From: Baylisascaris procyonis
Taxonomy: Eukaryota > Nematoda > Chromadorea > Rhabditida > Ascarididae
DNA: 64,000 nt
Reading direction: 5' to 3'
Assembly (NCBI GenBank): GCA_037389465.1
Contig: JAZARR010000201.1
Coordinates: 1,860,001 to 1,924,000, forward strand
Position numbers and translations under genes: made by a program. The notes beneath the pieces were generated by a model. It saw only the letters and a list, made by a program, of their open reading frames with translations. It searched no databases and was not told where the DNA came from. The stretch's first letter is position 1, and every line of letters starts with the position of its first letter. This document shows, piece after piece, positions 9,201-42,009 of the stretch.

Positions 9201-11205
9201 CTGAGTGAATTCGCCTTATTACGGAAAACTGTGACGGCAACTGCAAATGTGCTATAATCTCGTCCGAAATACAACGGCCTCGATGAGTTGAAGGGTGCGA
9301 ACAGCTTGAGGGTATTAATGAGTGGAAACTGGTCTTATCGTTGCAATTTTTTATTTGAAATATATTTGCAAAACATAGTAACATAGATGGAAACTGCAGT
9401 ACAAATGAAAAGTTCATCAAACATAACGTCAAAGTATTCAGCAAACTTGAAAACCCTTAGGAATTGTTCTCTACAGGGCCAAATTTTGTTACTCCCAATT
9501 GATAAGATGTAAGTGCGAGGATGTGCTTTAGTCCTCCTGATCATAAGGAGATTGAATCTTGATAAAAATCTTGTACCTGTTCCATTTTTCTTGAGAAAAC
9601 CTGCCAAACTCTTGGGAAGCTTGATCGCATAGCCTCGGAAATAATAAAATTCCTTCTTGGAATATAGGTTTTTGTCGGGTTGTGGAAAATAATTCGAAAT
9701 TCTCGCCATAGATCACAATCATGAATCACAGAAATTTAAACTGATACAAACAAAGAACTTCGTGAAGGAAAAATAGAGAACTAGGAAATCCAGGGGAGCA
9801 AAAAAGTTCCACTTTTTCACTTTAAAAAAAGATAAACGGAACCGCTCTCTATAGGAAGCGGGATAAGGTGACAATATCGGTTGAAGAAAGAAACCAACAG
9901 CTGATCAGTGAGTCACAAAATTCCCCCATGATTTCTTTCAATGCATCAAACGTGGGTGATGAGAATGCATTTTAAACTGTTGTTTCGCACAGCTAAAGGT
10001 TTTCAACGCAGAAAACTTGAGAGAGAAATGGCTAAGGAATGCAGGATGATAATAGATGAGAAGCCGTTGAGAAGCCGACACGACTGCTCCGATGGACCGC
10101 TCGAAAGATCTATCCAGAAATCGTAACATGGGGCGTCAGGACTACCGCTGAGAAGCTGGCATTTCCGCCAAATGACTTCCCCTCTGCGGTTGAAGGATGA
10201 ACTCTGCCCGAAAAATCATCAACTCAGAGGTCAGAAGCAACTTTTGATGAGGAGGCATCGCCGGGAATATGGTGTCGGCAGAGACGACTTCTCTTCTGGA
10301 AATGGAAGAATGGAATGTTCGAGAGTGAAATGCAAAAAGTACGTATAGGCACAGGATGCAAGAAAGCGTACTAGCGACGTTAAGTCGTCCTACATGCAAA
10401 ATTTTGTCAAAAATTTTTTAGCTGTGCTTAAGATAGACCTGAAGTACTTATGCGTTGTATCTCCACCCGAAAAATCACCTATTGCTTTCTCTTCTGACAT
10501 CACCAAATTCCTGAAATTTCCATTAATATCGCGTCAATAAATTAAATACAACGAATAAACGTAGCCAGAGCACGCATGAGAAAAAAAAGAAAACCCTTCA
10601 CAACGAAACGTAACCCTTCATAATTTTTCCAACATAATTTTGTGTTGACTGCTTTTTTCAACACTCTTCAATAGTACAGAAAATAGCGACGAAAATAGAA
10701 ACGTAGAAAACTGCATTAAAGCTGTACGATATATAAGCACACTATAGTGGGAAGAAATAAAAATGTTTTGGAACTTTTCTTCTATGTATCCATTGCAACA
10801 AAACAACTGCTAATGACTATATACTACAAATGCAAAACCGAAATAAATGACGAGTAAATTTTGGTAATTTTCTTCGTTTCACATAAAAATTCAAACAAAT
10901 CGAAAGGTGTTCGTGATGTTACTTCAACGCCGAGAAAACGCCGACAGTTAAGATGAACATAACGGAAAAACCAATGGCGTTATGTGGTGGACATATTCAT
11001 ACATCTGGTATGCGGTGATTTAATCACGCAAAAATTGGTGGCCGCTATCTAGACGAAATCGCATAAATGAAGCTGCTGCTATACCGCACGCGATCCGTGG
11101 GGAAATTACGGCACTTCTTTCTATAAAGGACCACAGTTGAACGCAAAAATACGGATCACTTATTATTTCGTCATTTTTTGATATTTTTGTTAGATTTTTA
11201 TATGA
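6246..11205. other. Non-repetitive spacer between the two satellite elements; no confident gene
   Basis: About 5 kb of AT-rich DNA. Open frames here are short and unrecognised. An 82-codon Ser/Asn-rich frame lies at 8,951-9,199 (+), after a pyrimidine-rich stretch at 8,800-8,880. A Cys/His-containing 91-codon frame lies at 7,899-8,174 (+). A 124-codon frame at 9,335-9,709 (-) overlaps two other open minus frames. A 28-codon acidic frame starts at 7,588 (+). Any could be a fragment of an exon or old transposon, but no family motif or convincing splice pair was found. Nothing else is distinguishable here. Confidence 0.6.
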
Positions 11206-12607
11206 CCTCTTGGCAATTTTCGTCTTATGGTAGAAGTGGAGGAAGTAGGCGGAAATTTGATGATCCGGAAGAGATATCCGTTCGAGAACCGGAAAATTGA
11301 TTTCTGGCCATACCTCCCTTCCAGTTGGACTAATTTGGGAGGAGTTTTTTCGTTATCCATGGTTTACCACCACCTACTGCATACCCAGAGAAAGGTCTCG
11401 CAGAGATGAAAAAAATTGGCAAATTGCCAACTTCATTTTTATAACTTTTCTCATCATCACGCAGTTTTCTCATCCGCTACAAGTTTTTATCTCTTTTCAA
11501 CCCTATGATGTAACTTTTATGTAACTTATGTAATTATGTAACCTTGGTTTTGCTCCGATCCAGGATTTCCAGGATACTTGGGAAAGTTTTTATTTTTTGC
11601 CATAATTTTTTACCGGACAACCAGGGAGACGCGCACTTAGCGTCATTCGACGCCGCAGGCGATTTCCTTTCCAAAGGTCTATAACATGCTTAGGCTATCT
11701 CTATGGAAATATTGGAAAACCCATCTGGTGACGGGAGAGTACACTAAAGTGAGGGAGTCAGAGAAATGACACTACTCCTTATATAACTCCGGTATTTCTT
11801 TATAGATTTCGATGAAGCTTTCTTTATTCAATTCAGTATTTAATTCTCTTTCGAACCGTATATACACTTGACGTGTTACTTGTGAGGGTTCGTGAGAAAA
11901 AAAATTAAAATTAAAATTATAGTGTAATTAAAGGGAGAATGAAGTTTTTCCATAGCAACAACTGCATATAGAGCCAAAGCAGGGGGCCGAGGAACGCGGC
12001 AGCCCCAACACGGGGGAGTTCGGGGGAAGTCGGAGCCTCCTGATCTCAATATAAGTTATGAAATAAAAAAATATATAGTTGAAAGATTCGTATTGTCACT
12101 TCTTCCTGCGATCAACATAGCTTCCTTTGATTCTTCTTCCTGCATTCTTTTATTTTCATTCGTCTTTCACATTCTTCTTTAATGGCGTCTATTTCTTAGA
12201 TTCATTTTCAGAAGATTTGTTCAGTTAAAAAATTAAATTTTGTGAATTTTCTATAGAAATGTAGTGTTTTGAGATTTCGGATCTTGTTTCTCGGCAATCG
12301 TTTCGCCTATCAAGTTGCGGTTTGCTTTTTTCGGCACAACATTAGAAGCTCTACCAAACCACATATGGACCGCTACATTGCGGAACTCAAGCTGAAAGCC
12401 GAACCGACCGGCCAAAATTTTCGAAATCTCGGTTTTTCATATCTTGGGGGTCCTCGTTCTCGGCTGCTATCACATGTAGTGCTGAATGGTCTTTTGTTTC
12501 GTCATTAGCTCTCCGAGCCTCCTCGAACGGTACGTAGGCTACCGCCCGTGGGCAAACAGGAGCCGAGAAAAAGGATCCCAAAAACCGCAATTTTTCTATC
12601 GTAAAGG
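11206..12607 (+). repeat. Left inverted arm
   Basis: This is the reverse complement of 40,605-42,009 with few differences. I saw single-base changes near 11,213, 11,330, 11,352 and 11,400, a two-base indel near 12,262 (GTAGTG against GTACAGTG), and a poly-A run of 8 against 9 near 11,900. The outer 1.06 kb is unique to the arms. It includes a GC-rich patch near 11,990-12,040 containing CACGGGGGAGTT. The inner part from about 12,270 is monomer-like. No coding function was recognised; a 60-codon frame at 11,227-11,409 is also open in the other arm. Confidence 0.92.
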
Positions 12608-12640
12608 TCGATCGATCGCAGGTCCAGGAATCTTGCATTT
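12270..12640 (+). repeat. Diverged satellite monomer inside the left arm
   Basis: The stretch from TCTCGGCAATCGTTTCGCC through GGTCCAGGAATCTTGCA follows the order of motifs in the 514-bp monomer: AGAAGCTCTA, TCGAAATCTCGGTTTTT, CTCGTTCTCGGCTGCTATCA, TGGTCTTTTGTTTCGTCAT, then GGGCAAACAGGAGCCGAG. It lacks the GGTTAGGCTTATGCG phrase and a stretch around the KpnI site, and is far more diverged than the array monomers are from each other. The same diverged copy is in the right arm at about 40,763-40,945. Confidence 0.8.
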
Positions 12641-12800
12641 TTATTCAATGTTACTGTAACTGATATTTACGATTTTTTTCTCGGCAATCGTTTCGCCCAT
12701 CGAGTACCGCTTTACTTCTTTCGACCTAGCTTCAGAAGCTCTGTGAGCCAAATATAGATATCCCTAATCACTTCATCAAGCTCTATCGTTTGATAAGAAA
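12637..12800 (-). repeat. Turnaround module at the left edge of array B
   Basis: Up to the AGCTTCAGAAGCTCTGTG near 12,730-12,747 the monomer sequence runs in + orientation. From TATCCCTAATCACTTCATCA at about 12,759 it runs in - orientation. The whole module is the reverse complement, with about 10% difference by eye, of 6,010-6,175. Confidence 0.85.
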
Positions 12801-15800
12801 ATCATCAAAATCGGAGGGAAAAAATATTTTTCGAAATTTTCCACGTGGTACCCCCTTACGATCGAAAAATTGCGGTTTTTGGGATCCTTTTTCTCGGCTC
12901 CTGTTTGCCCACGGGCGGTAGCCTACATACCGTTCGAGGAGGCTCGGAGAGCTAATGACGAAACAAAAGACCATTCAGCACTACATGTGATAGCAGCCGA
13001 GAACGAGGACCCCCGATATTGCAAAAATCGAGATTTAAGAAATTCGGGTCGATCGTATCGGTTTTAAAGTTCCCTCCCGAAATCTGATGATCTATACATC
13101 GTTCGATAGAGCTTCTGAAGTTCTGTCGAAAAAAGCAAACCCTAGACGCATAAGCCTAACCATTCTTTAGAAAAAAGTTCAGAAATATCAATTACAGGAA
13201 AATTATATAAAAAAGCAAGATTCCTGGACCTATAATTTCCTTCCTTTCACATCAACCAGCAAACGACGCGCATATCCATAACCACTTCATGAAGCTCTAT
13301 CGTTTGATAAGAAAATCATCAAAATCGGAGGGAAAAAATATTTTTCGAAATTTTCCACGTGGTACCCCCTTACGATCGAAAAATTGCGGTTTTTGGGATC
13401 CTTTTTCTCGGCTCCTGTTTGCCCACGGGCGGTAGCCTACATACCGTTCGAGGAGGCTCGGAGAGCTAATGACGAAACAAAAGACCATTCAGCACTACAT
13501 GTGATAGCAGCCGAGAACGAGGACCCCCGATATTGCAAAAATCGAGATTTAAGAAATTCGGGTCGATCGTATCGGTTTTAAAGTTCCCTCCCGAAATCTG
13601 ATGATCTATACATCGTTCGATAGAGCTTCTGAAGTTCTGTCGAAAAAAGCAAACCCTAGACGCATAAGCCTAACCATTCTTTAGAAAAAAGTTCAGAAAT
13701 ATCAATTACAGGAAAATTATATAAAAAAGCAAGATTCCTGGACCTATAATTTCCTTCCTTTCACATCAACCAGCAAACGACGCGCATATCCATAACCACT
13801 TCATCAAGCTCTATCGTTTGATAAGAAAATCATCAAAATCGGAGGGAAAAAATATTTTTCGAAATTTTCCATGTGGTACCCCCTTACGATCGAAAAATTG
13901 CGGTTTTTGGGATCCTTTTTCTCCGCTCCTGTTTGCCCACGGGCGGTAGCCTACATACCGTTCGAGGAGGCTCGGAGAGCTAATGACGAAACAAAAGACC
14001 ATTCAGCACTACATGTGATAGCAGCCGAGAACGAGGACCCCCGATATTGCAAAAATCGAGATTTAAGAAATTCGGGTCGATCGTATCGGTTTTAAAGTTC
14101 CCTCCCGAAATCTGATGATCTATACATCGTTCGATAGAGCTTCTGAAGTTCTGTCGAAAAAAGCAAACCCTAGACGCATAAGCCTAACCATTGCTTAGAA
14201 AAAAGTTCAGAAATATCAATTACAGGAAAATTATATAAAAAAGCAAGATTCCTGGACCTATAATTTCCTTCCTTTCACATCAACCAGCAAACGACGCGCA
14301 TATCCATAACCACTTCATGAAGCTCTATCGTTTGATAAGAAAATCATCAAAATCGGAGGGAAAAAATATTTTTCGAAATTTTCCATGTGGTACCCCCTCA
14401 CGATCGAAAAATTGCGGTTTTTGGGATCCTTTTTCTCGGCTCCTGTTTGCCCACGGGCGGTAGCCTACATACCGTTCGAGGAGGCTCGGAGAGCTAATGA
14501 CGAAACAAAAGACCATTCAGCACTACATGTGATAGCAGCCGAGAACGAGGACCCCCGATATTGCAAAAATCGAGATTTAAGAAATTCGGGTCGATCGTAT
14601 CGGTTTTAAAGTTCCCTCCCGAAATCTGATGATCTATACATCGTTCGATAGAGCTTCTGAAGTTCTGTCGAAAAAAGCAAACCCTAGACGCATAAGCCTA
14701 ACCATTGCTTAGCAAAAAGTTCAGAAATATCAATTACAGGAAAATTATATAAAAAAGCAAGATTCCTGGACCTATAATTTCCTTCCTTTCACATCAACCA
14801 GCAAACGACGCGCATATCCATAACCACTTCATGAAGCTCTATCGTTTGATAAGAAAATCATCAAAATCGGAGGGAAAAAATATTTTTCGAAATTTTCCAC
14901 GTGGTACCCCCTTACGATCGAAAAATTGCGGTTTTTGGGATCCTTTTTCTCGGCTCCTGTTTGCCCACGGGCGGTAACCTACATACCGTTCGAGGAGGCT
15001 CGGAGAGCTAATGACGAAACAAAAGACCATTCAGCACTACATGTGATAGCAGCCGAGAACGAGGACCCCCGATATTGCAAAAATCGAGATTTAAGAAATT
15101 CGGGTCGATCGTATCGGTTTTAAAGTTCCCTCCCGAAATCTGATGATCTATACATCGTTCGATAGAGCTTCTGAAGTTCTGTCGAAAAAAGCAAACCCTA
15201 GACGCATAAGCCTAACCATTGCTTAGAAAAAAGTTCAGAAATATCAATTACAGGAAAATTATATAAAAAAGCAAGATTCCTGGACCTATAATTTCCTTCC
15301 TTTCACATCAACCAGCAAACGACGCGCATATCCATAACCACTTCATGAAGCTCTATCGTTTGATAAGAAAATCATCAAAATCGGAGGGAAAAATATTTTT
15401 CGAAATTTTCCACGTGGTACCCCCTTACGATCGAAAAATTGCGGTTTTTGGGATCCTTTTTCTCCGCTCCTGTTTGCCCACGGGCGGTAGCCTACATACC
15501 GTTCGAGGAGGCTCGGAGAGCTAATGACGAAACAAAAGACCATTCAGCACTACATGTGATAGCAGCCGAGAACGAGGACCCCCGATATTGCAAAAATCGA
15601 GATTTAAGAAATTCGGGTCGATCGTATCGGTTTTAAAGTTCCCTCCCGAAATCTGATGATCTATACATCGTTCGATAGAGCTTCTGAAGTTCTGTCGAAA
15701 AAAGCAAACCCTAGACGCATAAGCCTAACCATTGCTTAGAAAAAAGTTCAGAAATATCAATTACAGGAAAATTATATAAAAAAGCAAGATTCCTGGACCT

Positions 15801-18800
15801 ATAATTTCCTTCCTTTCACATCAACCAGCAAACGACGCGCATATCCATAACCACTTCATCAAGCTCTATCGTTTGATAAGAAAATCATCAAAATCGGAGG
15901 GAAAAAATATTTTTCGAAATTTTCCACGTGGTACCCCCTTACGATCGAAAAATTGCGGTTTTTGGGATCCTTTTTCTCGGCTCCTGTTTGCCCACGGGCG
16001 GTAGCCTACATACCGTTCGAGGAGGCTCGGAGAGCTAATGACGAAACAAAAGACCATTCAGCACTACATGTGATAGCAGCCGAGAACGAGGACCCCCGAT
16101 ATTGCAAAAATCGAGATTTAAGAAATTCGGGTCGATCGTATCGGTTTTAAAGTTCCCTCCCGAAATCTGATGATCTATACATCGTTCGATAGAGCTTCTG
16201 AAGTTCTGTCGAAAAAAGCAAACCCTAGACGCATAAGCCTAACCATTCTTTAGAAAAAAGTTCAGAAATATCAATTACAGGAAAATTATATAAAAAAGCA
16301 AGATTCCTGGACCTATAATTTCCTTCCTTTCACATCAACCAGCAAACGACGCGCATATCCATAACCACTTCATCAAGCTCTATCGTTTGATAAGAAAATC
16401 ATCAAAATCGGAGGGAAAAAATATTTTTCGAAATTTTCCATGTGGTACCCCCTTACGATCGAAAAATTGCGGTTTTTGGGATCCTTTTTCTCGGCTCCTG
16501 TTTGCCCACGGGCGGTAACCTACATACCGTTCGAGGAGGCTCGGAGAGCTAATGACGAAACAAAAGACCATTCAGCACTACATGTGATAGCAGCCGAGAA
16601 CGAGGACCCCCGATATTGCAAAAATCGAGATTTAAGAAATTCGGGTCGATCGTATCGGTTTTAAAGTTCCCTCCCGAAATCTGATGATCTATACATCGTT
16701 CGATAGAGCTTCTGAAGTTCTGTCGAAAAAAGCAAACCCTAGACGCATAAGCCTAACCATTGCTTAGAAAAAAGTTCAGAAATATCAATTACAGGAAAAT
16801 TATATAAAAAAGCAAGATTCCTGGACCTATAATTTCCTTCCTTTCACATCAACCAGCAAACGACGCGCATATCCATAACCACTTCATCAAGCTCTATCGT
16901 TTGATAAGAAAATCATCAAAATCGGAGGGAAAAAATATTTTTCGAAATTTTCCATGTGGTACCCCCTTACGATCGAAAAATTGCGGTTTTTGGGATCCTT
17001 TTTCTCGGCTCCTGTTTGCCCACGGGCGGTAGCCTACATACCGTTCGAGTAGGCTCGGAGAGCTAATGACGAAACAAAAGACCATTCAGCACTACATGTG
17101 ATAGCAGCCGAGAACGAGGACCCCCGATATTGCAAAAATCGAGATTTAAGAAATTCGGGTCGATCGTATCAGTTTTAAAGTTCCCTCCCGAAATCTGATG
17201 ATCTATACATCGTTCGATAGAGCTTCTGAAGTTCTGTCGAATAAAGCAAACCCTAGACGCATAAGCCTAACCATTGCTTAGAAAAAAGTTCAGAAATATC
17301 AATTACAGGAAAATTATATAAAAAAGCAAGATTCCTGGACCTATAATTTCCTTCCTTTCACATCAACCAGCAAACGACGCGCATATCCATAACCACTTCA
17401 TGAAGCTCTATCGTTTGATAAGAAAATCATCAAAATCGGAGGGAAAAAATATTTTTCGAAATTTTCCACGTGGTACCCCCTTACGATCGAAAAATTGCGG
17501 TTTTTGGGATCCTTTTTCTCGGCTCCTGTTTGCCCACGGGCGGTAGCCTACATACCGTTCGAGGAGGCTCGGAGAGCTAATGACGAAACAAAAGACCATT
17601 CAGCACTACATGTGATAGCAGCCGAGAACGAGGACCCCCGATATTGCAAAAATCGAGATTTAAGAAATTCGGGTCGATCGTATCGGTTTTAAAGTTCCCT
17701 CCCGAAATCTGATGATCTATACATCGTTCGATAGAGCTTCTGAAGTTCTGTCGAAAAAAGCAAACCCTAGACGCATAAGCCTAACCATTCTTTAGAAAAA
17801 AGTTCAGAAATATCAATTACAGGAAAATTATATAAAAAAGCAAGATTCCTGGACCTATAATTTCCTTCCTTTCACATCAACCAGCAAACGACGCGCATAT
17901 CCATAACCACTTCATGAAGCTCTATCGTTTGATAAGAAAATCATCAAAATCGGAGGGAAAAAATATTTTTCGAAATTTTCCATGTGGTACCCCCTTACGA
18001 TCGAAAAATTGCGGTTTTTGGGATCCTTTTTCTCGGCTCCTGTTTGCCCACGGGCGGTAGCCTACATACCGTTCGAGGAGGCTCGGAGAGCTAATGACGA
18101 AACAAAAGACCATTCAGCACTACATGTGATAGCAGCCGAGAACGAGGACCCCCGATATTGCAAAAATCGAGATTTAAGAAATTCGGGTCGATCGTATCGG
18201 TTTTAAAGTTCCCTCCCGAAATCTGATGATCTATACATCGTTCGATAGAGCTTCTGAAGTTCTGTCGAAAAAAGCAAACCCTAGACGCATAAGCCTAACC
18301 ATTCTTTAGAAAAAAGTTCAGAAATATCAATTACAGGAAAATTATATAAAAAAGCAAGATTCCTGGACCTATAATTTCCTTCCTTTCACATCAACCAGCA
18401 AACGACGCGCATATCCATAACCACTTCATCAAGCTCTATCGTTTGATAAGAAAATCATCAAAATCGGAGGGAAAAAATATTTTTCGAAATTTTCCATGTG
18501 GTACCCCCTTACGATCGAAAAATTGCGGTTTTTGGGATCCTTTTTCTCGGCTCCTGTTTGCCCACGGGCGGTAGCCTACATACCGTTCGAGGAGGCTCGG
18601 AGAGCTAATGACGAAACAAAAGACCATTCAGCACTACATGTGATAGCAGCCGAGAACGAGGACCCCCGATATTGCAAAAATCGAGATTTAAGAAATTCGG
18701 GTCGATCGTATCGGTTTTAAAGTTCCCTCCCGAAATCTGATGATCTATACATCGTTCGATAGAGCTTCTGAAGTTCTGTCGAAAAAAGCAAACCCTAGAC

Positions 18801-21800
18801 GCATAAGCCTAACCATTGCTTAGAAAAAAGTTCAGAAATATCAATTACAGGAAAATTATATAAAAAAGCAAGATTCCTGGACCTATAATTTCCTTCCTTT
18901 CACATCAACCAGCAAACGACGCGCATATCCATAACCACTTCATGAAGCTCTATCGTTTGATAAGAAAATCATCAAAATCGGAGGGAAAAAATATTTTTCG
19001 AAATTTTCCATGTGGTACCCCCTTACGATCGAAAAATTGCGGTTTTTGGGATCCTTTTTCTCGGCTCCTGTTTGCCCACGGGCGGTAGCCTACATACCGT
19101 TCGAGGAGGCTCGGAGAGCTAATGACGAAACAAAAGACCATTCAGCACTACATGTGATAGCAGCCGAGAACGAGGACCCCCGATATTGCAAAAATCGAGA
19201 TTTAAGAAATTCGGGTCGATCGTATCGGTTTTAAAGTTCCCTCCCGAAATCTGATGATCTATACATCGTTCGATAGAGCTTCTGAAGTTCTGTCGAAAAA
19301 AGCAAACCCTAGACGCATAAGCCTAACCATTGCTTAGAAAAAAGTTCAGAAATATCAATTACAGGAAAATTATATAAAAAAGCAAGATTCCTGGACCTAT
19401 AATTTCCTTCCTTTCACATCAACCAGCAAACGACGCGCATATCCATAACCACTTCATGAAGCTCTATCGTTTGATAAGAAAATCATCAAAATCGGAGGGA
19501 AAAAATATTTTCGAAATTTTCCACGTGGTACCCCCTTACGATCGAAAAATTGCGGTTTTTGGGATCCTTTTTCTCGGCTCCTGTTTGCCCACGGGCGGTA
19601 GCCTACATACCGTTCGAGGAGGCTCGGAGAGCTAATGACGAAACAAAAGACCATTCAGCACTACATGTGATAGCAGCCGAGAACGAGGACCCCCGATATT
19701 GCAAAAATCGAGATTTAAGAAATTCGGGTCGATCGTATCGGTTTTAAAGTTCCCTCCCGAAATCTGATGATCTATACATCGTTCGATAGAGCTTCTGAAG
19801 TTCTGTCGAAAAAAGCAAACCCTAGACGCATAAGCCTAACCATTGCTTAGAAAAAAGTTCAGAAATATCAATTACAGGAAAATTATATAAAAAAGCAAGA
19901 TTCCTGGACCTATAATTTCCTTCCTTTCACATCAACCAGCAAACGACGCGCATATCCATAACCACTTCATGAAGCTCTATCGTTTGATAAGAAAATCATC
20001 AAAATCGGAGGGAAAAAATATTTTTCGAAATTTTCCATGTGGTACCCCCTTACGATCGAAAAATTGCGGTTTTTGGGATCCTTTTTCTCGGCTCCTGTTT
20101 GCCCACGGGCGGTAGCCTACATACCGTTCGAGGAGGCTCGGAGAGCTAATGACGAAACAAAAGACCATTCAGCACTACATGTGATAGCAGCCGAGAACGA
20201 GGACCCCCGATATTGCAAAAATCGAGATTTAAGAAATTCGGGTCGATCGTATCGGTTTTAAAGTTCCCTCCCGAAATCTGATGATCTATACATCGTTCGA
20301 TAGAGCTTCTGAAGTTCTGTCGAAAAAAGCAAACCCTAGACGCATAAGCCTAACCATTGCTTAGAAAAAAGTTCAGAAATATCAATTACAGGAAAATTAT
20401 ATAAAAAAGCAAGATTCCTGGACCTATAATTTCCTTCCTTTCACATCAACCAGCAAACGACGCGCATATCCATAACCACTTCATCAAGCTCTATCGTTTG
20501 ATAAGAAAATCATCAAAATCGGAGGGAAAAAATATTTCGAAATTTTCCACGTGGTACCCCCTTACGATCGAAAAATTGCGGTTTTTGGGATCCTTTTTCT
20601 CGGCTCCTGTTTGCCCACGGGCGGTAGCCTACATACCGTTCGAGGAGGCTCGGAGAGCTAATGACGAAACAAAAGACCATTCAGCACTACATGTGATAGC
20701 AGCCGAGAACGAGGACCCCCGATATTGCAAAAATCGAGATTTAAGAAATTCGGGTCGATCGTATCGGTTTTAAAGTTCCCTCCCGAAATCTGATGATCTA
20801 TACATCGTTCGATAGAGCTTCTGAAGTTCTGTCGAAAAAAGCAAACCCTAGACGCATAAGCCTAACCATTCTTAGAAAAAAGTTCAGAAATATCAATTAC
20901 AGGAAAATTATATAAAAAAGCAAGATTCCTGGACCTATAATTTCCTTCCTTTCACATCAACCAGCAAACGACGCGCATATCCATAACCACTTCATCAAGC
21001 TCTATCGTTTGATAAGAAAATCATCAAAATCGGAGGGAAAAAATATTTTTCGAAATTTTCCATGTGGTACCCCCTTACGATCGAAAAATTGCGGTTTTTG
21101 GGATCCTTTTTCTCGGCTCCTGTTTGCCCACGGGCGGTAGCCTACATACCGTTCGAGGAGGCTCGGAGAGCTAATGACGAAACAAAAGACCATTCAGCAC
21201 TACATGTGATAGCAGCCGAGAACGAGGACCCCCGATATTGCAAAAATCGAGATTTAAGAAATTCGGGTCGATCGTATCGGTTTTAAAGTTCCCTCCCGAA
21301 ATCTGATGATCTATACATCGTTCGATAGAGCTTCTGAAGTTCTGTCGAAAAAAGCAAACCCTAGACGCATAAGCCTAACCATTGCTTAGAAAAAAGTTCA
21401 GAAATATCAATTACAGGAAAATTATATAAAAAAGCAAGATTCCTGGACCTATAATTTCCTTCCTTTCACATCAACCAGCAAACGACGCGCATATCCATAA
21501 CCACTTCATCAAGCTCTATCGTTTGATAAGAAAATCATCAAAATCGGAGGGAAAAAATATTTTTCGAAATTTTCCATGTGGTACCCCCTTACGATCGAAA
21601 AATTGCGGTTTTTGGGATCCTTTTTCTCGGCTCCTGTTTGCCCACGGGCGGTAGCCTACATACCGTTCGAGGAGGCTCGGAGAGCTAATGACGAAACAAA
21701 AGACCATTCAGCACTACATGTGATAGCAGCCGAGAACGAGGACCCCCGATATTGCAAAAATCGAGATTTAAGAAATTCGGGTCGATCGTATCGGTTTTAA

Positions 21801-24800
21801 AGTTCCCTCCCGAAATCTGATGATCTATACATCGTTCGATAGAGCTTCTGAAGTTCTGTCGAATAAAGCAAACCCTAGACGCATAAGCCTAACCATTGCT
21901 TAGAAAAAAGTTCAGAAATATCAATTACAGGAAAATTATATAAAAAAGCAAGATTCCTGGACCTATAATTTCCTTCCTTTCACATCAACCAGCAAACGAC
22001 GCGCATATCCATAACCACTTCATGAAGCTCTATCGTTTGATAAGAAAATCATCAAAATCGGAGGGAAAAAATATTTTTCGAAATTTTCCACGTGGTACCC
22101 CCTTACGATCGAAAAATTGCGGTTTTTGGGATCCTTTTTCTCGGCTCCTGTTTGCCCACGGGCGGTAGCCTACATACAGTTCGAGGAGGCTCGGAGAGCT
22201 AATGACGAAACAAAAGACCATTCAGCACTACATGTGATAGCAGCCGAGAACGAGGACCCCCGATATTGCAAAAATCGAGATTTAAGAAATTCGGGTCGAT
22301 CGTATCGGTTTTAAAGTTCCCTCCCGAAATCTGATGATCTATACATCGTTCGATAGAGCTTCTGAAGTTCTGTCGAAAAAAGCAAACCCTAGACGCATAA
22401 GCCTAACCATTGCTTAGAAAAAAGTTCAGAAATATCAATTACAGGAAAATTATATAAAAAAGCAAGATTCCTGGACCTATAATTTCCTTCCTTTCACATC
22501 AACCAGCAAACGACGCGCATATCCATAACCACTTCATGAAGCTCTATCGTTTGATAAGAAAATCATCAAAATCGGAGGGAAAAAATATTTTTCGAAATTT
22601 TCCATGTGGTACCCCCTTACGATCGAAAAATTGCGGTTTTTGGGATCCTTTTTCTCGGCTCCTGTTTGCCCACGGGCGGTAGCCTACATACCGTTCGAGG
22701 AGGCTCGGAGAGCTAATGACGAAACAAAAGACCATTCAGCACTACATGTGATAGCAGCCGAGAACGAGGACCCCCGATATTGCAAAAATCGAGATTTAAG
22801 AAATTCGGGTCGATCGTATCGGTTTTAAAGTTCCCTCCCGAAATCTGATGATCTATACATCGTTCGATAGAGCTTCTGAAGTTCTGTCGAAAAAAGCAAA
22901 CCCTAGACGCATAAGCCTAACCATTGCTTAGAAAAAAGTTCAGAAATATCAATTACAGGAAAATTATATAAAAAAGCAAGATTCCTGGACCTATAATTTC
23001 CTTCCTTTCACATCAACCAGCAAACGACGCGCATATCCATAACCACTTCATCAAGCTCTATCGTTTGATAAGAAAATCATCAAAATCGGAGGGAAAAAAT
23101 ATTTTTCGAAATTTTCCATGTGGTACCCCCTCACGATCGAAAAATTGCGGTTTTTGGGATCCTTTTTCTCGGCTCCTGTTTGCCCACGGGCGGTAGCCTA
23201 CATACCGTTCGAGGAGGCTCGGAGAGCTAATGACGAAACAAAAGACCATTCAGCACTACATGTGATAGCAGCCGAGAACGAGGACCCCCGATATTGCAAA
23301 AATCGAGATTTAAGAAATTCGGGTCGATCGTATCGGTTTTAAAGTTCCCTCCCGAAATCTGATGATCTATACATCGTTCGATAGAGCTTCTGAAGTTCTG
23401 TCGAAAAAAGCAAACCCTAGACGCATAAGCCTAACCATTGCTTAGAAAAAAGTTCAGAAATATCAATTACAGGAAAATTATATAAAAAAGCAAGATTCCT
23501 GGACCTATAATTTCCTTCCTTTCACATCAACCAGCAAACGACGCGCATATCCATAACCACTTCATGAAGCTCTATCGTTTGATAAGAAAATCATCAAAAT
23601 CGGAGGGAAAAAATATTTTTCGAAATTTTCCACGTGGTACCCCCTTACGATCGAAAAATTGCGGTTTTTGGGATCCTTTTTCTCGGCTCCTGTTTGCCCA
23701 CGGGCGGTAGCCTACATACCGTTCGAGGAGGCTCGGAGAGCTAATGACGAAACAAAAGACCATTCAGCACTACATGTGATAGCAGCCGAGAACGAGGACC
23801 CCCGATATTGCAAAAATCGAGATTTAAGAAATTCGGGTCGATCGTATCGGTTTTAAAGTTCCCTCCCGAAATCTGATGATCTATACATCGTTCGATAGAG
23901 CTTCTGAAGTTCTGTCGAAAAAAGCAAACCCTAGACGCATAAGCCTAACCATTGCTTAGAAAAAAGTTCAGAAATATCAATTACAGGAAAATTATATAAA
24001 AAAGCAAGATTCCTGGACCTATAATTTCCTTCCTTTCACATCAACCAGCAAACGACGCGCATATCCATAACCACTTCATCAAGCTCTATCGTTTGATAAG
24101 AAAATCATCAAAATCGGAGGGAAAAAATATTTTTCGAAATTTTCCACGTGGTACCCCCTTACGATCGAAAAATTGCGGTTTTTGGGATCCTTTTTCTCGG
24201 CTCCTGTTTGCCCACGGGCGGTAGCCTACATACCGTTCGAGGAGGCTCGGAGAGCTAATGACGAAACAAAAGACCATTCAGCACTACATGTGATAGCAGC
24301 CGAGAACGAGGACCCCCGATATTGCAAAAATCGAGATTTAAGAAATTCGGGTCGATCGTATCGGTTTTAAAGTTCCCTCCCGAAATCTGATGATCTATAC
24401 ATCGTTCGATAGAGCTTCTGAAGTTCTGTCGAAAAAAGCAAACCCTAGACGCATAAGCCTAACCATTCTTAGAAAAAAGTTCAGAAATATCAATTACAGG
24501 AAAATTATATAAAAAAGCAAGATTCCTGGACCTATAATTTCCTTCCTTTCACATCAACCAGCAAACGACGCGCATATCCATAACCACTTCATCAAGCTCT
24601 ATCGTTTGATAAGAAAATCATCAAAATCGGAGGGAAAAAATATTTTTCGAAATTTTCCATGTGGTACCCCCTTACGATCGAAAAATTGCGGTTTTTGGGA
24701 TCCTTTTTCTCGGCTCCTGTTTGCCCACGGGCGGTAACCTACATACCGTTCGAGGAGGCTCGGAGAGCTAATGACGAAACAAAAGACCATTCAGCACTAC

Positions 24801-30800: not shown

Positions 30801-33800
30801 GGGAAAAAATATTTTTCGAAATTTTCCACGTGGTACCCCCTTACGATCGAAAAATTGCGGTTTTTGGGATCCTTTTTCTCGGCTCCTGTTTGCCCACGGG
30901 CGGTAGCCTACATACCGTTCGAGGAGGCTCGGAGAGCTAATGACGAAACAAAAGACCATTCAGCACTACATGTGATAGCAGCCGAGAACGAGGACCCCCG
31001 ATATTGCAAAAATCGAGATTTAAGAAATTCGGGTCGATCGTATCGGTTTTAAAGTTCCCTCCCGAAATCTGATGATCTATACATCGTTCGATAGAGCTTC
31101 TGAAGTTCTGTCGAAAAAAGCAAACCCTAGACGCATAAGCCTAACCATTGTTTAGAAAAAAGTTCAGAAATATCAATTACAGGAAAATTACATAAAAAAG
31201 CAAGATTCCTGGACCTATAATTTCCTTCCTTTCACATCAACCAGCAAACGACGCGCATATCCATAACCACTTCATGAAGCTCTATCGTTTGATAAGAAAA
31301 TCATCAAAATCGGAGGGAAAAAAATATTTTTCGAAATTTTCCATGTGGTACCCCCTTACGATCGAAAAATTGCGGTTTTTGGGATCCTTTTTCTCGGCTC
31401 CTGTTTGCCCACGGGCGGTAGCCTACATACCGTTCGAGGAGGCTCGGAGAGCTAATGACGAAACAAAAGACCATTCAGCACTACATGTGATAGCAGCCGA
31501 GAACGAGGACCCCCGATATTGCAAAAATCGAGATTTAAGAAATTCGGGTCGATCGTATCGGTTTTAAAGTTCCCTCCCGAAATCTGATGATCTATACATC
31601 GTTCGATAGAGCTTCTGAAGTTCTGTCGAAAAAAGCAAACCCTAGACGCATAAGCCTAACCATTGCTTAGAAAAAAGTTCAGAAATATCAATTACAGGAA
31701 AATTATATAAAAAAGCAAGATTCCTGGACCTATAATTTCCTTCCTTTCACATCAACCAGCAAACGACGCGCATATCCATAACCACTTCATCAAGCTCTAT
31801 CGTTTGATAAGAAAATCATCAAAATCGGAGGGAAAAAATATTTTTCGAAATTTTCCATGTGGTACCCCCTCACGATCGAAAAATTGCGGTTTTTGGGATC
31901 CTTTTTCTCGGCTCCTGTTTGCCCACGGGCGGTAGCCTACATACCGTTCGAGGAGGCTCGGAGAGCTAATGACGAAACAAAAGACCATTCAGCACTACAT
32001 GTGATAGCAGCCGAGAACGAGGACCCCCGATATTGCAAAAATCGAGATTTAAGAAATTCGGGTCGATCGTATCGGTTTTAAAGTTCCCTCCCGAAATCTG
32101 ATGATCTATACATCGTTCGATAGAGCTTCTGAAGTTCTGTCGAAAAAAGCAAACCCTAGACGCATAAGCCTAACCATTGCTTAGAAAAAAGTTCAGAAAT
32201 ATCAATTACAGGAAAATTATATAAAAAAGCAAGATTCCTGGACCTATAATTTCCTTCCTTTCACATCAACCAGCAAACGACGCGCATATCCATAACCACT
32301 TCATCAAGCTCTATCGTTTGATAAGAAAATCATCAAAATCGGAGGGAAAAAATATTTTTCGAAATTTTCCATGTGGTACCCCCTCACGATCGAAAAATTG
32401 CGGTTTTTGGGATCCTTTTTCTCGGCTCCTGTTTGCCCACGGGCGGTAGCCTACATACCGTTCGAGGAGGCTCGGAGAGCTAATGACGAAACAAAAGACC
32501 ATTCAGCACTACATGTGATAGCAGCCGAGAACGAGGACCCCCGATATTGCAAAAATCGAGATTTAAGAAATTCGGGTCGATCGTATCGGTTTTAAAGTTC
32601 CCTCCCGAAATCTGATGATCTATACATCGTTCGATAGAGCTTCTGAAGTTCTGTCGAAAAAAGCAAACCCTAGACGCATAAGCCTAACCATTGCTTAGAA
32701 AAAAGTTCAGAAATATCAATTACAGGAAAATTATATAAAAAAGCAAGATTCCTGGACCTATAATTTCCTTCCTTTCACATCAACCAGCAAACGACGCGCA
32801 TATCCATAACCACTTCATCAAGCTCTATCGTTTGATAAGAAAATCATCAAAATCGGAGGGAAAAAATATTTTTCGAAATTTTCCATGTGGTACCCCCTCA
32901 CGATCGAAAAATTGCGGTTTTTGGGATCCTTTTTCTCGGCTCCTGTTTGCCCACGGGCGGTAGCCTACATACCGTTCGAGGAGGCTCGGAGAGCTAATGA
33001 CGAAACAAAAGACCATTCAGCACTACATGTGATAGCAGCCGAGAACGAGGACCCCCGATATTGCAAAAATCGAGATTTAAGAAATTCGGGTCGATCGTAT
33101 CGGTTTTAAAGTTCCCTCCCGAAATCTGATGATCTATACATCGTTCGATAGAGCTTCTGAAGTTCTGTCGAAAAAAGCAAACCCTAGACGCATAAGCCTA
33201 ACCATTGCTTAGAAAAAAGTTCAGAAATATCAATTACAGGAAAATTATATAAAAAAGCAAGATTCCTGGACCTATAATTTCCTTCCTTTCACATCAACCA
33301 GCAAACGACGCGCATATCCATAACCACTTCATGAAGCTCTATCGTTTGATAAGAAAATCATCAAAATCGGAGGGAAAAAATATTTTTCGAAATTTTCCAT
33401 GTGGTACCCCCTTACGATCGAAAAATTGCGGTTTTTGGGATCCTTTTTCTCGGCTCCTGTTTGCCCACGGGCGGTAGCCTACATACCGTTCGAGGAGGCT
33501 CGGAGAGCTAATGACGAAACAAAAGACCATTCAGCACTACATGTGATAGCAGCCGAGAACGAGGACCCCCGATATTGCAAAAATCGAGATTTAAGAAATT
33601 CGGGTCGATCGTATCGGTTTTAAAGTTCCCTCCCGAAATCTGATGATCTATACATCGTTCGATAGAGCTTCTGAAGTTCTGTCGAAAAAAGCAAACCCTA
33701 GACGCATAAGCCTAACCATTGTTTAGAAAAAAGTTCAGAAATATCAATTACAGGAAAATTATATAAAAAAGCAAGATTCCTGGACCTATAATTTCCTTCC

Positions 33801-36800
33801 TTTCACATCAACCAGCAAACGACGCGCATATCCATAACCACTTCATCAAGCTCTATCGTTTGATAAGAAAATCATCAAAATCGGAGGGAAAAAATATTTT
33901 TCGAAATTTTCCATGTGGTACCCCCTCACGATCGAAAAATTGCGGTTTTTGGGATCCTTTTTCTCGGCTCCTGTTTGCCCACGGGCGGTAGCCTACATAC
34001 CGTTCGAGGAGGCTCGGAGAGCTAATGACGAAACAAAAGACCATTCAGCACTACATGTGATAGCAGCCGAGAACGAGGACCCCCGATATTGCAAAAATCG
34101 AGATTTAAGAAATTCGGGTCGATCGTATCGGTTTTAAAGTTCCCTCCCGAAATCTGATGATCTATACATCGTTCGATAGAGCTTCTGAAGTTCTGTCGAA
34201 AAAAGTAAACCCTAGACGCATAAGCCTAACCATTGCTTAGAAAAAAGTTCAGAAATATCAATTACAGGAAAATTATATAAAAAAGCAAGATTCCTGGACC
34301 TATAATTTCCTTCCTTTCACATCAACCAGCAAACGACGCGCATATCCATAACCACTTCATGAAGCTCTATCGTTTGATAAGAAAATCATCAAAATCGGAG
34401 GGAAAAAATATTTTTCGAAATTTTCCATGTGGTACCCCCTTACGATCGAAAAATTGCGGTTTTTGGGATCCTTTTTCTCGGCTCCTGTTTGCCCACGGGC
34501 GGTAGCCTACATACCGTTCGAGGAGGCTCGGAGAGCTAATGACGAAACAAAAGACCATTCAGCACTACATGTGATAGCAGCCGAGAACGAGGACCCCCGA
34601 TATTGCAAAAATCGAGATTTAAGAAATTCGGGTCGATCGTATCGGTTTTAAAGTTCCCTCCCGAAATCTGATGATCTATACATCGTTCGATAGAGCTTCT
34701 GAAGTTCTGTCGAAAAAAGCAAACCCTAGACGCATAAGCCTAACCATTGCTTAGAAAAAAGTTCAGAAATATCAATTACAGGAAAATTATATAAAAAAGC
34801 AAGATTCCTGGACCTATAATTTCCTTCCTTTCACATCAACCAGCAAACGACGCGCATATCCATAACCACTTCATCAAGCTCTATCGTTTGATAAGAAAAT
34901 CATCAAAATCGGAGGGAAAAAATATTTTTCGAAATTTTCCATGTGGTACCCCCTCACGATCGAAAAATTGCGGTTTTTGGGATCCTTTTTCTCGGCTCCT
35001 GTTTGCCCACGGGCGGTAGCCTACATACCGTTCGAGGAGGCTCGGAGAGCTAATGACGAAACAAAAGACCATTCAGCACTACATGTGATAGCAGCCGAGA
35101 ACGAGGACCCCCGATATTGCAAAAATCGAGATTTAAGAAATTCGGGTCGATCGTATCGGTTTTAAAGTTCCCTCCCGAAATCTGATGATCTATACATCGT
35201 TCGATAGAGCTTCTGAAGTTCTGTCGAAAAAAGTAAACCCTAGACGCATAAGCCTAACCATTGCTTAGAAAAAAGTTCAGAAATATCAATTACAGGAAAA
35301 TTATATAAAAAAGCAAGATTCCTGGACCTATAATTTCCTTCCTTTCACATCAACCAGCAAACGACGCGCATATCCATAACCACTTCATGAAGCTCTATCG
35401 TTTGATAAGAAAATCATCAAAATCGGAGGGAAAAAATATTTTTCGAAATTTTCCATGTGGTACCCCCTTACGATCGAAAAATTGCGGTTTTTGGGATCCT
35501 TTTTCTCGGCTCCTGTTTGCCCACGGGCGGTAGCCTACATACCGTTCGAGGAGGCTCGGAGAGCTAATGACGAAACAAAAGACCATTCAGCACTACATGT
35601 GATAGCAGCCGAGAACGAGGACCCCCGATATTGCAAAAATCGAGATTTAAGAAATTCGGGTCGATCGTATCGGTTTTAAAGTTCCCTCCCGAAATCTGAT
35701 GATCTATACATCGTTCGATAGAGCTTCTGAAGTTCTGTCGAAAAAAGTAAACCCTAGACGCATAAGCCTAACCATTGCTTAGAAAAAAGTTCAGAAATAT
35801 CAATTACAGGAAAATTATATAAAAAAGCAAGATTCCTGGACCTATAATTTCCTTCCTTTCACATCAACCAGCAAACGACGCGCATATCCATAACCACTTC
35901 ATCAAGCTCTATCGTTTGATAAGAAAATCATCAAAATCGGAGGGAAAAAATATTTTTCGAAATTTTCCATGTGGTACCCCCTCACGATCGAAAAATTGCG
36001 GTTTTTGGGATCCTTTTTCTCGGCTCCTGTTTGCCCACGGGCGGTAGCCTACATACCGTTCGAGGAGGCTCGGAGAGCTAATGACGAAACAAAAGACCAT
36101 TCAGCACTACATGTGATAGCAGCCGAGAACGAGGACCCCCGATATTGCAAAAATCGAGATTTAAGAAATTCGGGTCGATCGTATCGGTTTTAAAGTTCCC
36201 TCCCGAAATCTGATGATCTATACATCGTTCGATAGAGCTTCTGAAGTTCTGTCGAAAAAAGCAAACCCTAGACGCATAAGCCTAACCATTGCTTAGAAAA
36301 AAGTTCAGAAATATCAATTACAGGAGAATTATATAAAAAAGCAAGATTCCTGGACCTATAATTTCCTTCCTTTCACATCAACCAGCAAACGACGCGCATA
36401 TCCATAACCACTTCATGAAGCTCTATCGTTTGATAAGAAAATCATCAAAATCGGAGGGAAAAAATATTTTTCGAAATTTTCCATGTGGTACCGCCTTACG
36501 ATCGAAAAATTGCGGTTTTTGGGATCCTTTTTCTCGGCTCCTGTTTGCCCACGGGCGGTAGCCTACATACCGTTCGAGGAGGCTCGGAGAGCTAATGACG
36601 AAACAAAAGACCATTCAGCACTACATGTGACAGCAGCCGAGAACGAGGACCCCCGATATTGCAAAAATCGAGATTTAAGAAATTCGGGTCGATCGTATCG
36701 GTTTTAAAGTTCCCTCCCGAAATCTGATGATCTATACATCGTTCGATAGAGCTTCTGAAGTTCTGTCGAAAAAAGTAAACCCTAGACGCATAAGCCTAAC

Positions 36801-39800
36801 CATTGCTTAGAAAAAAGTTCAGAAATATCAATTACAGGAAAATTATATAAAAAAGCAAGATTCCTGGACCTATAATTTCCTTCCTTTCACATCAACCAGC
36901 AAACGACGCGCATATCCATAACCACTTCATGAAGCTCTATCGTTTGATAAGAAAATCATCAAAATCGGAGGGAAAAAATATTTTTCGAAATTTTCCATGT
37001 GGTACCCCCTTACGATCGAAAAATTGCGGTTTTTGGGATCCTTTTTCTCGGCTCCTGTTTGCCCACGGGCGGTAGCCTACATACCGTTCGAGGAGGCTCG
37101 GAGAGCTAATGACGAAACAAAAGACCATTCAGCACTACATGTGATAGCAGCCGAGAACGAGGACCCCCGATATTGCAAAAATCGAGATTTAAGAAATTCG
37201 GGTCGATCGTATCGGTTTTAAAGTTCCCTCCCGAAATCTGATGATCTATACATCGTTCGATAGAGCTTCTGAAGTTCTGTCGAAAAAAGCAAACCCTAGA
37301 CGCATAAGCCTAACCATTGCTTAGAAAAAAGTTCAGAAATATCAATTACAGGAAAATTATATAAAAAAGCAAGATTCCTGGACCTATAATTTCCTTCCTT
37401 TCACATCAACCAGCAAACGACGCGCATATCCATAACCACTTCATCAAGCTCTATCGTTTGATAAGAAAATCATCAAAATCGGAGGGAAAAAATATTTTTC
37501 GAAATTTTCCATGTGGTACCCCCTCACGATCGAAAAATTGCGGTTTTTGGGATCCTTTTTCTCGGCTCCTGTTTGCCCACGGGCGGTAGCCTACATACCG
37601 TTCGAGGAGGCTCGGAGAGCTAATGACGAAACAAAAGACCATTCAGCACTACATGTGATAGCAGCCGAGAACGAGGACCCCCGATATTGCAAAAATCGAG
37701 ATTTAAGAAATTCGGGTCGATCGTATCGGTTTTAAAGTTCCCTCCCGAAATCTGATGATCTATACATCGTTCGATAGAGCTTCTGAAGTTCTGTCGAAAA
37801 AAGCAAACCCTAGACGCATAAGCCTAACCATTGCTTAGAAAAAAGTTCAGAAATATCAATTACAGGAAAATTATATAAAAAAGCAAGATTCCTGGACCTA
37901 TAATTTCCTTCCTTTCACATCAACCAGCAAACGACGCGCATATCCATAACCACTTCATGAAGCTCTATCGTTTGATAAGAAAATCATCAAAATCGGAGGG
38001 AAAAAATATTTTTCGAAATTTTCCATGTGGTACCCCCTTACGATCGAAAAATTGCGGTTTTTGGGATCCTTTTTCTCGGCTCCTGTTTGCCCACGGGCGG
38101 TAGCCTACATACCGTTCGAGGAGGCTCGGAGAGCTAATGACGAAACAAAAGACCATTCAGCACTACATGTGACAGCAGCCGAGAACGAGGACCCCCGATA
38201 TTGCAAAAATCGAGATTTAAGAAATTCGGGTCGATCGTATCGGTTTTAAAGTTCCCTCCCGAAATCTGATGATCTATACATCGTTCGATAGAGCTTCTGA
38301 AGTTCTGTCGAAAAAAGTAAACCCTAGACGCATAAGCCTAACCATTGCTTAGAAAAAAGTTCAGAAATATCAATTACAGGAAAATTATATAAAAAAGCAA
38401 GATTCCTGGACCTATAATTTCCTTCCTTTCACATCAACCAGCAAACGACGCGCATATCCATAACCACTTCATGAAGCTCTATCGTTTGATAAGAAAATCA
38501 TCAAAATCGGAGGGAAAAAATATTTTTCGAAATTTTCCATGTGGTACCCCCTTACGATCGAAAAATTGCGGTTTTTGGGATCCTTTTTCTCGGCTCCTGT
38601 TTGCCCACGGGCGGTAGCCTACATACCGTTCGAGGAGGCTCGGAGAGCTATTGACGAAACAAAAGACCATTCAGCACTACATGTGATAGCAGCCGAGAAC
38701 GAGGACCCCCGATATTGCAAAAATCGAGATTTAAGAAATTCGGGTCGATCGTATCGGTTTTAAAGTTCCCTCCCGAAATCTGATGATCTATACATCGTTC
38801 GATAGAGCTTCTGAAGTTCTGTCGAAAAAAGCAAACCCTAGACGCATAAGCCTAACCATTGCTTAGAAAAAAGTTCAGAAATATCAATTACAGGAAAATT
38901 ATATAAAAAAGCAAGATTCCTGGACCTATAATTTCCTTCCTTTCACATCAACCAGCAAACGACGCGCATATCCATAACCACTTCATCAAGCTCTATCGTT
39001 TGATAAGAAAATCATCAAAATCGGAGGGAAAAAATATTTTTCGAAATTTTCCATGTGGTACCCCCTCACGATCGAAAAATTGCGGTTTTTGGGATCCTTT
39101 TTCTCGGCTCCTGTTTGCCCACGGGCGGTAGCCTACATACCGTTCGAGGAGGCTCGGAGAGCTAATGACGAAACAAAAGACCATTCAGCACTACATGTGA
39201 TAGCAGCCGAGAACGAGGACCCCCGATATTGCAAAAATCGAGATTTAAGAAATTCGGGTCGATCGTATCGGTTTTAAAGTTCCCTCCCGAAATCTGATGA
39301 TCTATACATCGTTCGATAGAGCTTCTGAAGTTCTGTCGAAAAAAGTAAACCCTAGACGCATAAGCCTAACCATTGCTTAGAAAAAAGTTCAGAAATATCA
39401 ATTACAGGAAAATTATATAAAAAAGCAAGATTCCTGGACCTATAATTTCCTTCCTTTCACATCAACCAGCAAACGACGCGCATATCCATAACCACTTCAT
39501 GAAGCTCTATCGTTTGATAAGAAAATCATCAAAATCGGAGGGAAAAAATATTTTTCGAAATTTTCCATGTGGTACCCCCTTACGATCGAAAAATTGCGGT
39601 TTTTGGGATCCTTTTTCTCGGCTCCTGTTTGCCCACGGGCGGTAGCCTACATACCGTTCGAGGAGGCTCGGAGAGCTAATGACGAAACAAAAGACCATTC
39701 AGCACTACATGTGATAGCAGCCGAGAACGAGGACCCCCGATATTGCAAAAATCGAGATTTAAGAAATTCGGGTCGATCGTATCGGTTTTAAAGTTCCCTC

Positions 39801-40762
39801 CCGAAATCTGATGATCTATACATCGTTCGATAGAGCTTCTGAAGTTCTGTCGAAAAAAGCAAACCCTAGACGCATAAGCCTAACCATTGCTTAGAAAAAA
39901 GTTCAGAAATATCAATTACAGGAAAATTATATAAAAAAGCAAGATTCCTGGACCTATAATTTCCTTCCTTTCACATCAACCAGCAAACGACGCGCATATC
40001 CATAACCACTTCATCAAGCTCTATCGTTTGATAAGAAAATCATCAAAATCGGAGGGAAAAAATATTTTTCGAAATTTTCCATGTGGTACCCCCTCACGAT
40101 CGAAAAATTGCGGTTTTTGGGATCCTTTTTCTCGGCTCCTGTTTGCCCACGGGCGGTAGCCTACATACCGTTCGAGGAGGCTCGGAGAGCTAATGACGAA
40201 ACAAAAGACCATTCAGCACTACATGTGATAGCAGCCGAGAACGAGGACCCCCGATATTGCAAAAATCGAGATTTAAGAAATTCGGGTCGATCGTATCGGT
40301 TTTAAAGTTCCCTCCCGAAATCTGATGATCTATACATCGTTCGATAGAGCTTCTGAAGTTCTGTCGAAAAAAGTAAACCCTAGACGCATAAGCCTAACCA
40401 TTGCTTAGAAAAAAGTTCAGAAATATCAATTACAGGAAAATTATATAAAAAAGCAAGATTCCTGGACCTATAATTTCCTTCCTTTCACATCAACCAGCAA
40501 ACGACGCGCATATCCATAACCACTTCATGAAGCTCTATCGTTTGATAAGAAAATCATCAAAATCGGAGGGAAAAAATATTTTTCGAAATTTTCCATGTGG
40601 TACCCCCTTACGATCGAAAAATTGCGGTTTTTGGGATCCTTTTTCTCGGCTCCTGTTTGCCCACGGGCGGTAGCCTACATACAGTTCGAGGAGGCTCGGA
40701 GAGCTAATGACGAAACAAAAGACCATTCAGCACTACATGTGATAGCAGCCGAGAACGAGGAC
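12750..40762 (-). repeat. Satellite array B: about 54-55 head-to-tail 514-bp monomers
   Basis: Equivalent points recur every 514 bp from 12,783 to 40,535, with occasional 511-516 bp steps caused by small indels in A-runs (for example AAAAATATTTCG near 20,528). Copies differ at a handful of recurrent sites: CATCAAG/CATGAAG, CCACGTGG/CCATGTGG, CCCCTTACG/CCCCTCACG, GGTAGCC/GGTAACC, CCGTTCG/CAGTTCG and AAAGCAAAC/AAAGTAAAC. Every monomer has a KpnI site; most also have BamHI (GGATCC), which is absent from most array A monomers. A 63-codon minus frame is open in nearly all copies, but most common variants in it change the amino acid (Lys/Glu, His/Arg), so there is no sign of protein-level constraint. 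Confidence 0.97.
33339..40534 (-). repeat. Alternating two-monomer higher-order repeat (about 1,028 bp)
   Basis: In this stretch monomers with CTTCATGAAG plus CCCCTTACG largely alternate with monomers carrying CTTCATCAAG plus CCCCTCACG. From 33,339 the pattern is strict for seven monomers, is disturbed around 36,423-36,937 and 37,965-38,479, and then resumes to the right arm. The disturbance coincides with a private variant TGACAGCAG shared by monomers at 36,423 and 37,965, three units apart. Confidence 0.75.
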
Positions 40763-42009
40763 CACCAAGATATGAAAAACCGAGATTTCGAAAATTTTGG
40801 CCGGTCGGTTCGGCTTTCAGCTTGAGTTCCGCAATGTAGCGGTCCATATGTGGTTTGGTAGAGCTTCTAATGTTGTGCCGAAAAAAGCAAACCGCAACTT
40901 GATAGGCGAAACGATTGCCGAGAAACAAGATCCGAAATCTCAAAACACTGTACATTTCTATAGAAAATTCACAAAATTTAATTTTTTAACTGAACAAATC
41001 TTCGGAAAATGAATCTAAGAAATAGACGCCATTAAAGAAGAATGCGAAAGACGAATGAAAATAAAAGAATGCAGGAAGAAGAATCAAAGGAAGCTATGTT
41101 GATCGCAGGAAGAAGTGACAATACGAATCTTTTAACTATATATTTTTTTATTTCATAACTTATATTGAGATCAGGAGGCTCCGACTTCCCCCGAACTCCC
41201 CCGTGTTGGGGCTGCCGCGTTCCTCGGCCCCCTGCTTTGGCTCTATATGCAGTTGTTGCTATGGAAAAACTTCATTCTCCCTTTAATTACACTATAATTT
41301 TAATTTTAATTTTTTTTTCTCACGAACCCTCACAAGTAACACGTCAAGTGTATATACGGTTCGAAAGAGAATTAAATACTGAATTGAATAAAGAAAGCTT
41401 CATCGAAATCTATAAAGAAATACCGGAGTTATATAAGGAGTAGTGTCATTTCTCTGACTCCCTCACTTTAGTGTACTCTCCCGTCACCAGATGGGTTTTC
41501 CAATATTTCCATAGAGATAGCCTAAGCATGTTATAGACCTTTGGAAAGGAAATCGCCTGCGGCGTCGAATGACGCTAAGTGCGCGTCTCCCTGGTTGTCC
41601 GGTAAAAAATTATGGCAAAAAATAAAAACTTTCCCAAGTATCCTGGAAATCCTGGATCGGAGCAAAACCAAGGTTACATAATTACATAAGTTACATAAAA
41701 GTTACATCATAGGGTTGAAAAGAGATAAAAACTTGTAGCGGATGAGAAAACTGCGTGATGATGAGAAAAGTTATAAAAATGAAGTTGGCAATTTGCCAAT
41801 TTTTTTCATCGCTGTGAGACCTTTCTCTGGGTATGCAGTAGGTGGTGGTAAACCATGGATAATGAAAAAACTCCTCCCAACTTAGTCCAACTGGAAGGGA
41901 GGTATGGCCAGAAATCAATTTTCCGGTTCTCGAACGGATATCTCTTCCGGATCATCAAATTTCCGCCTACTTCCTCCACTTCTACCATAAGACGGAAATT
42001 CCCAAGAGG
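40605..42009 (-). repeat. Right inverted arm
   Basis: Read on the minus strand this repeats the left arm from its outer end inward, then passes directly into array B without changing direction. The near-identity of two 1.4-kb arms separated by 28 kb implies recent origin or recent conversion. The frame equivalent to the left-arm ORF is 41,806-42,045 (-) and extends 19 codons further out. A plus-strand frame at 41,165-41,443 is open here, but the counterpart in the left arm is shifted by the poly-T length change, which argues against coding. Confidence 0.92.

Follow-up and report, generated by a model that had tools for sequence, protein, structure and literature searches.

What could place 28 kb of one tandem repeat between two inverted arms, and why would only one of the arms have grown? 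The question is raised by the window, the 64,000-nucleotide stretch of Baylisascaris procyonis DNA analysed here (C199:1860001-1924000), which was compared with an assembly of 272.8 Mb in 293 contigs. An earlier note on this DNA had described a foldback-like element whose inner monomer was amplified on one side only, and the layout behind that description holds at base level. The two arms (11206-12607 and 42009-40605) are inverted copies with few differences: 98.79% identity over 1405 columns, a global alignment showing 14 mismatches and 2 gaps. As the note had it, the left arm carries a single monomer, which is incomplete (12260-12607, a gap, then 12620-12757) and meets the array head-on; the flip in orientation, which had been put at about 12,750, lies at 12757/12758 (Table 1). 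The array prolongs the right arm in one orientation, its last unit being of array type at 40430-40763 and passing into an arm-proximal transition at 40764-40943, and it lacks coding capacity, the longest stop-to-stop frame being 123 aa. As to the class of the arms, the locus probably consists of two opposed, truncated Helitron-like copies, the internal repeat having grown on the side that had tandem units.

Table 1. Arms, arrays and junctions in the window (A denotes the 5' part of the Helitron-like element).
Positions	Strand	Feature
1..6055	+	Second array of the 514-bp monomer (30 kb, opposite orientation), right end
6056..6175	-	Counterpart of the 12757/12758 head-on junction and, after it, ∼120 bp of monomer in the opposite direction, cut off at 6175
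6176..11142	none	Inter-array spacer
11143..12260	+	Left A arm (from the 5' part of a Helitron-like element), outer end truncated
11206..12607	+	Tract 98.8% identical to the right arm, probable gene-conversion tract
12608..12757	+	Older monomer remnant up to the head-on junction 12757/12758; 79.5% to the right-array consensus
12758..40763	-	Right tandem array of 514-bp monomers, made up of an incomplete unit at the junction, 53 full units and the array-type portion of the unit next to the arm
40764..40943	-	Transition sequence on the A side of the unit next to the arm; 73.4% identical to the array consensus
40944..42009	-	Right A arm, cut short at 42009

The arms are members of a dispersed family. 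A genome search with the arm segment 11206-12260 gave at least 48 matches from the best 40 of 469 candidates, and full-length relatives are about 71-78% identical to it; all arm numbers given here are minima, since the arm searches scored the best 40 of 284-469 candidates each. The relatives share one layout, with A (1.45 kb) followed by a variable number (n) of 514-bp monomers (M) and a tail, T (0.78 kb; 777 bp), and full copies read 5'-TC - A - Mn - T - CTRR-3'. At 12 joins T adjoins the outer end of A head-to-tail, in forms that include CTAG/TC, CTAA/TC, CTGA/TC and CTGG/TC. These ends are of Helitron type. The Helitron 3' end CTRR is found in 13 of the 16 copies with the usual T end, the exceptions being CTAC once and CTAT twice; five further copies, which continue with a different end, were set apart from these 16. 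The 5' side of the joins, scored as agreeing with the Helitron start, has TC in 7 of 12 cases, CC in 3 and other letters in 2, and a short repeat makes the precise 5' end of single copies hard to fix. All five 3' ends that were folded give a weak predicted hairpin stem (-4.5 to -6.6 kcal/mol, without shuffle control) that overlaps CTRR; the usual place of the Helitron hairpin is ∼11 bp upstream of CTRR. The base after CTAG, read as a check for insertion between A and T, is T in L027 and L040, and A in L042. The deviating T ends, the five joins that lack TC, the weakness and position of the stem, and the A after one CTAG all speak against a Helitron.

Two relatives on C132 carry a PIF1 helicase, and Rep accompanies the PIF1-type helicase, the gene content characteristic of Helitrons: one copy has PF14214 (Helitron_like_N) and PF05970 by Pfam, the other PF05970 and Rep similarity at 52%. 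In both, M, T1 and spacer precede the gene in that order (71% and 75% identity), so that the Rep/helicase gene looks integral to the element. A stretch on C130, 97.3% identical to one of the two over 6763 alignment columns, was excluded as an independent copy. The reading frames (C132:294204-297715 and 300925-305813) are antisense to the TC-to-CTRR direction, which counts against the Helitron assignment, since in most Helitrons the gene is not antisense to it. The Helentron account of PMC4067079 includes one element with a minus-orientation Rep/helicase.

Two other classes of element were considered for the family and rejected. A CACTA transposon came into question through CACTAATT near the end of the arm, but the joins between T and A place the end further out. 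An LTR retrotransposon was suggested by pairs of arms in the same direction ∼8-11 kb apart, and by a DUF7083 gag open reading frame beside the T end on C132. It was ruled out by a gag-pol piece that stops within integrase and is joined to monomer, with no LTR boundary or primer site seen, and by a ∼5.18-kb unit that proved to be a tandem duplication inside the array.

The relatives show some further features of their own. At C132:274396-285705 (L031, L032 and L023) a Gypsy-type gag-pol fragment, itself truncated, sits within the monomer array; together with monomers it makes up the ∼5.18-kb unit, which is duplicated in tandem. At L015:420-5036 monomers stand ∼1.05 kb apart, alternating with another short tandem repeat. 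The T tail, for instance at L016:6386-6800, has a conserved tRNA-like stretch that we take, by eye, to resemble RNA polymerase III A and B boxes.

The relatives reach ∼390 bp further out than the window arms, and both of these are therefore truncated. The outer ∼390-435 bp of the family is missing from each, left-arm sequence being recognisable leftward to about 11143-11159, and the two truncation points lie within ∼50-65 bp of each other. The family tail T has no match anywhere in the window; the window copy has no element ends of its own, be it TC, T or CTRR, and no target-site duplication was seen by eye beside the truncated arm ends. The window copy is a derivative, not a mobile copy.

The right array has a period of 514 bp and a mean pairwise identity of 99.0%, the arm-adjacent unit included. 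It has the long, homogeneous, head-to-tail order of a satellite over its 53 units, as does the left array over 57 units at 97.6%. A source other than the arm monomer, suggested by a whole-monomer identity of 88%, was dropped, the difference being limited to the A-proximal ∼180 bp. The monomer next to A also deviates from its neighbours in L011, L016, L018 and L021 (0.90-0.94, where the units that follow are 0.98-1.00 alike); L022 is diverged in all its monomers. One result counts against the reading preferred here: with the arm-adjacent unit included, the right units do not group as a single clade.

The left array extends over C199:1836106-1860000 and positions 1-6055 of the window (loci L029, L010 and L009). 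Its units form one clade and are 90.4% identical to those of the right array. An arm was looked for in the 2.1 kb past its far end and not found, and the spacer that separates it from the left arm has no match to the loci compared. Within the window part of this array autocorrelation peaks at 2567 bp, which hints at a higher-order repeat of five monomers. What ties the two arrays together is the junction. The same head-on join closes the left array (5600-6175 versus 13211-12636, 90.6% identity) and is followed by a counterpart of the same inner remnant (6056-6175 versus 12608-12757, 92.5%).

As the left array carries the same head-on junction, the junction predates the near-identity of the arms. 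Inner remnant and junction are 7-10% diverged from their left-array counterparts, about as much as the two arrays are from each other. The near-identity of the arms itself looks secondary from the way it is distributed: it stops at 12607, inside the monomer. Positions 12441-12607 are 98.1% identical to the right-array consensus, as against the far lower value for 12608-12757 (Table 1), and thus the young tract ends at 12607 and the junction is older. Outside the tract the left arm keeps 11143-11205, 88% identical to the relative L016, and so it was already an A arm beforehand. The mosaic break at 12607 suggests a recent gene conversion of 1.4 kb from the right arm to the left. The main alternative is an inverted copy made by template switch, which would leave a similar picture.

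Two opposed Helitron-like copies would lead to the present locus as follows. An opposed pair with parts of T still present exists at C132:291120-299905, and loss of the middle from such a pair would give the design seen in the window. The T ends, the coding part if there was any, and the outermost A would have been lost, leaving A-M head-on to M-A. The side with at least two tandem monomers may then have reached 28 kb through unequal exchange or rolling-circle amplification, while the side with one incomplete monomer would have had no tandem partner and could not grow. The head-on unit has an inverted counterpart 5 kb further left, which would have grown separately to 30 kb. Later, gene conversion or a similar exchange would have transferred the ∼1.4-kb tract of the right arm to the left arm. 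Expansion occurs in single-ended copies also, as at C110:3142165-3150576, which consists of A, ∼13 monomers and a truncated T. The rule suggested here is that growth of an array requires two or more monomers in tandem beforehand, and such a rule would explain the one-sidedness without a special mechanism.

A bolder version of this history can be offered tentatively. One palindromic Helitron remnant may have been duplicated in inverted orientation, both copies growing independently, and each on one side only, to arrays of nearly equal size (57 and 53 full units). The head-on join might itself favour the birth of a satellite, for example through stalled replication forks, the one-monomer side remaining fixed for want of a tandem partner.

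The order of events could also be reversed, with the satellite array coming first and an A arm pasted inverted at one end of it later, by inverted duplication or template switch. The abrupt end of the 98.8% tract inside a monomer speaks for such an event, and the truncation of both arms at nearly the same point fits it too. It is nevertheless unlikely, as the left arm retains family sequence beyond the tract (the L016-like 11143-11205) and the head-on junction is old and common to the left array.

A true foldback transposon of the FB, Galileo or Tetris kind, with long inverted arms of which one expanded, is a more doubtful proposition again. The combination of long inverted arms and inner tandem repeats is found in the window and in a small symmetric copy at C170:5121466-5127297, whose arms are 96% alike and hold 1.1 and ∼4.6 monomers; another inward-facing pair lies at C276:176045-180793. 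The family as a whole does not support this reading. Of at least 71 arm places listed (fragments included, from merged arm lists in which C228 and C229 count separately though near-identical), 40 stand more than 10 kb from any other listed arm, and the neighbour pairs within that distance are 13 direct, 5 outward and 4 inward, so that arms are mostly single rather than paired inward as terminal repeats. The window pair (28.7 kb apart) and a pair on C151 (∼53 kb apart) fall outside these counts; the latter is a possible 55-kb inverted element whose two arms share a deletion, although its interior pieces give no continuity. Further, the second end of the relatives is different (T, ending in CTRR), the joins are of Helitron type, and both window arms are truncated at their outer ends. 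The head-on junction of the C170 copy is unlike that of the window (phases 51/278 versus 94/442), so that such joins arose on more than one occasion. From the interpretation that led from transposon arm to satellite, then, the mobile family, the inner tandem monomers and the one-sided expansion survive, the last supported by the array-like sequence that the left arm holds at 12441-12607; the foldback class does not.

Misassembly of the inverted layout or of the array length is the least credible explanation: repeats of 99% identity over 28 kb are hard to assemble and the contig ends of C228 and C229 carry nearly identical copies, but the same head-on junction recurs in the left array at 90.6% with other flanks, and the mosaic boundary is unlike what a simple misjoin leaves. 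The two contig ends (C229:1-10000, L019, and C228:6053000-6062999, L020) are 99.6-100% identical, perhaps through assembly overlap or haplotype duplication, and so some stretches are represented twice in the assembly.

Satellites seeded by Helitron and Helentron elements from a central tandem array have precedents (PMC7492417; reviewed in PMC12628747), and the latter account includes single-ended and stand-alone satellite arrays among non-autonomous elements. As described in PMC7492417 and PMC4067079, Cg_HINE of oyster and DINE-1/HINE likewise have conserved flanks around a tandem array of variable length. The present family differs from them in its monomer (514 bp versus 138-168 bp) and in its TC/CTRR ends, where theirs are of Helentron type; the longest oyster array given for the Cg_HINE set has 29.3 monomers (PMC7492417), as against about 53-57 here. 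Truncated tandem Helitrons produced by rolling-circle amplification, with many 5' ends per 3' end, are attributed to Xiong et al. 2016 in PMC12628747. Amplification on the 5' side and head-to-tail joins are common to both cases, whereas here it is an internal 514-bp repeat that was amplified, and the two copies are opposed.

Among foldback elements, Tetris of Drosophila virilis provides the nearest likeness in the account of PMC4079207: its arm repeats became a satellite (TIR-220, with up to 66 copies). Tetris has true terminal inverted repeats, unlike the two different ends and mostly single arms found here. Tm1, a Mutator/foldback element of root-knot nematodes, is by the title of PMC3169594 a nematode foldback type, while the ends here are Helitron-like. 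A title-level literature search found no title about the A-Mn-T family.

The locus illustrates a route from mobile DNA to satellite DNA whose outline is already known from other animals. Steps from Helitron to satellite can be followed within one genome: single-monomer copies, copies of 2 to ∼13 monomers that retain their flanks, and arrays of 28-30 kb without transposon ends. PMC13370393 describes an enrichment of Helitrons and satellites in the DNA that some Caenorhabditis eliminate, and in PMC8837657 the somatic genome of Ascaris is described as losing a 120-bp satellite, which makes the fate of the 28-kb array in the soma worth asking about.

Around the arrays, the search for tRNA genes and Rfam families in the window found none. 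To the right of the arms a Fizzy-related gene lies on the minus strand at ∼46.0-51.2 kb; with its exons spliced by eye, it is 98% identical to Ascaris suum F1KWM8, a value that places this genome very near Ascaris. Beyond it, a 23-bp minisatellite of 11.6 copies occupies window positions 55483-55748.
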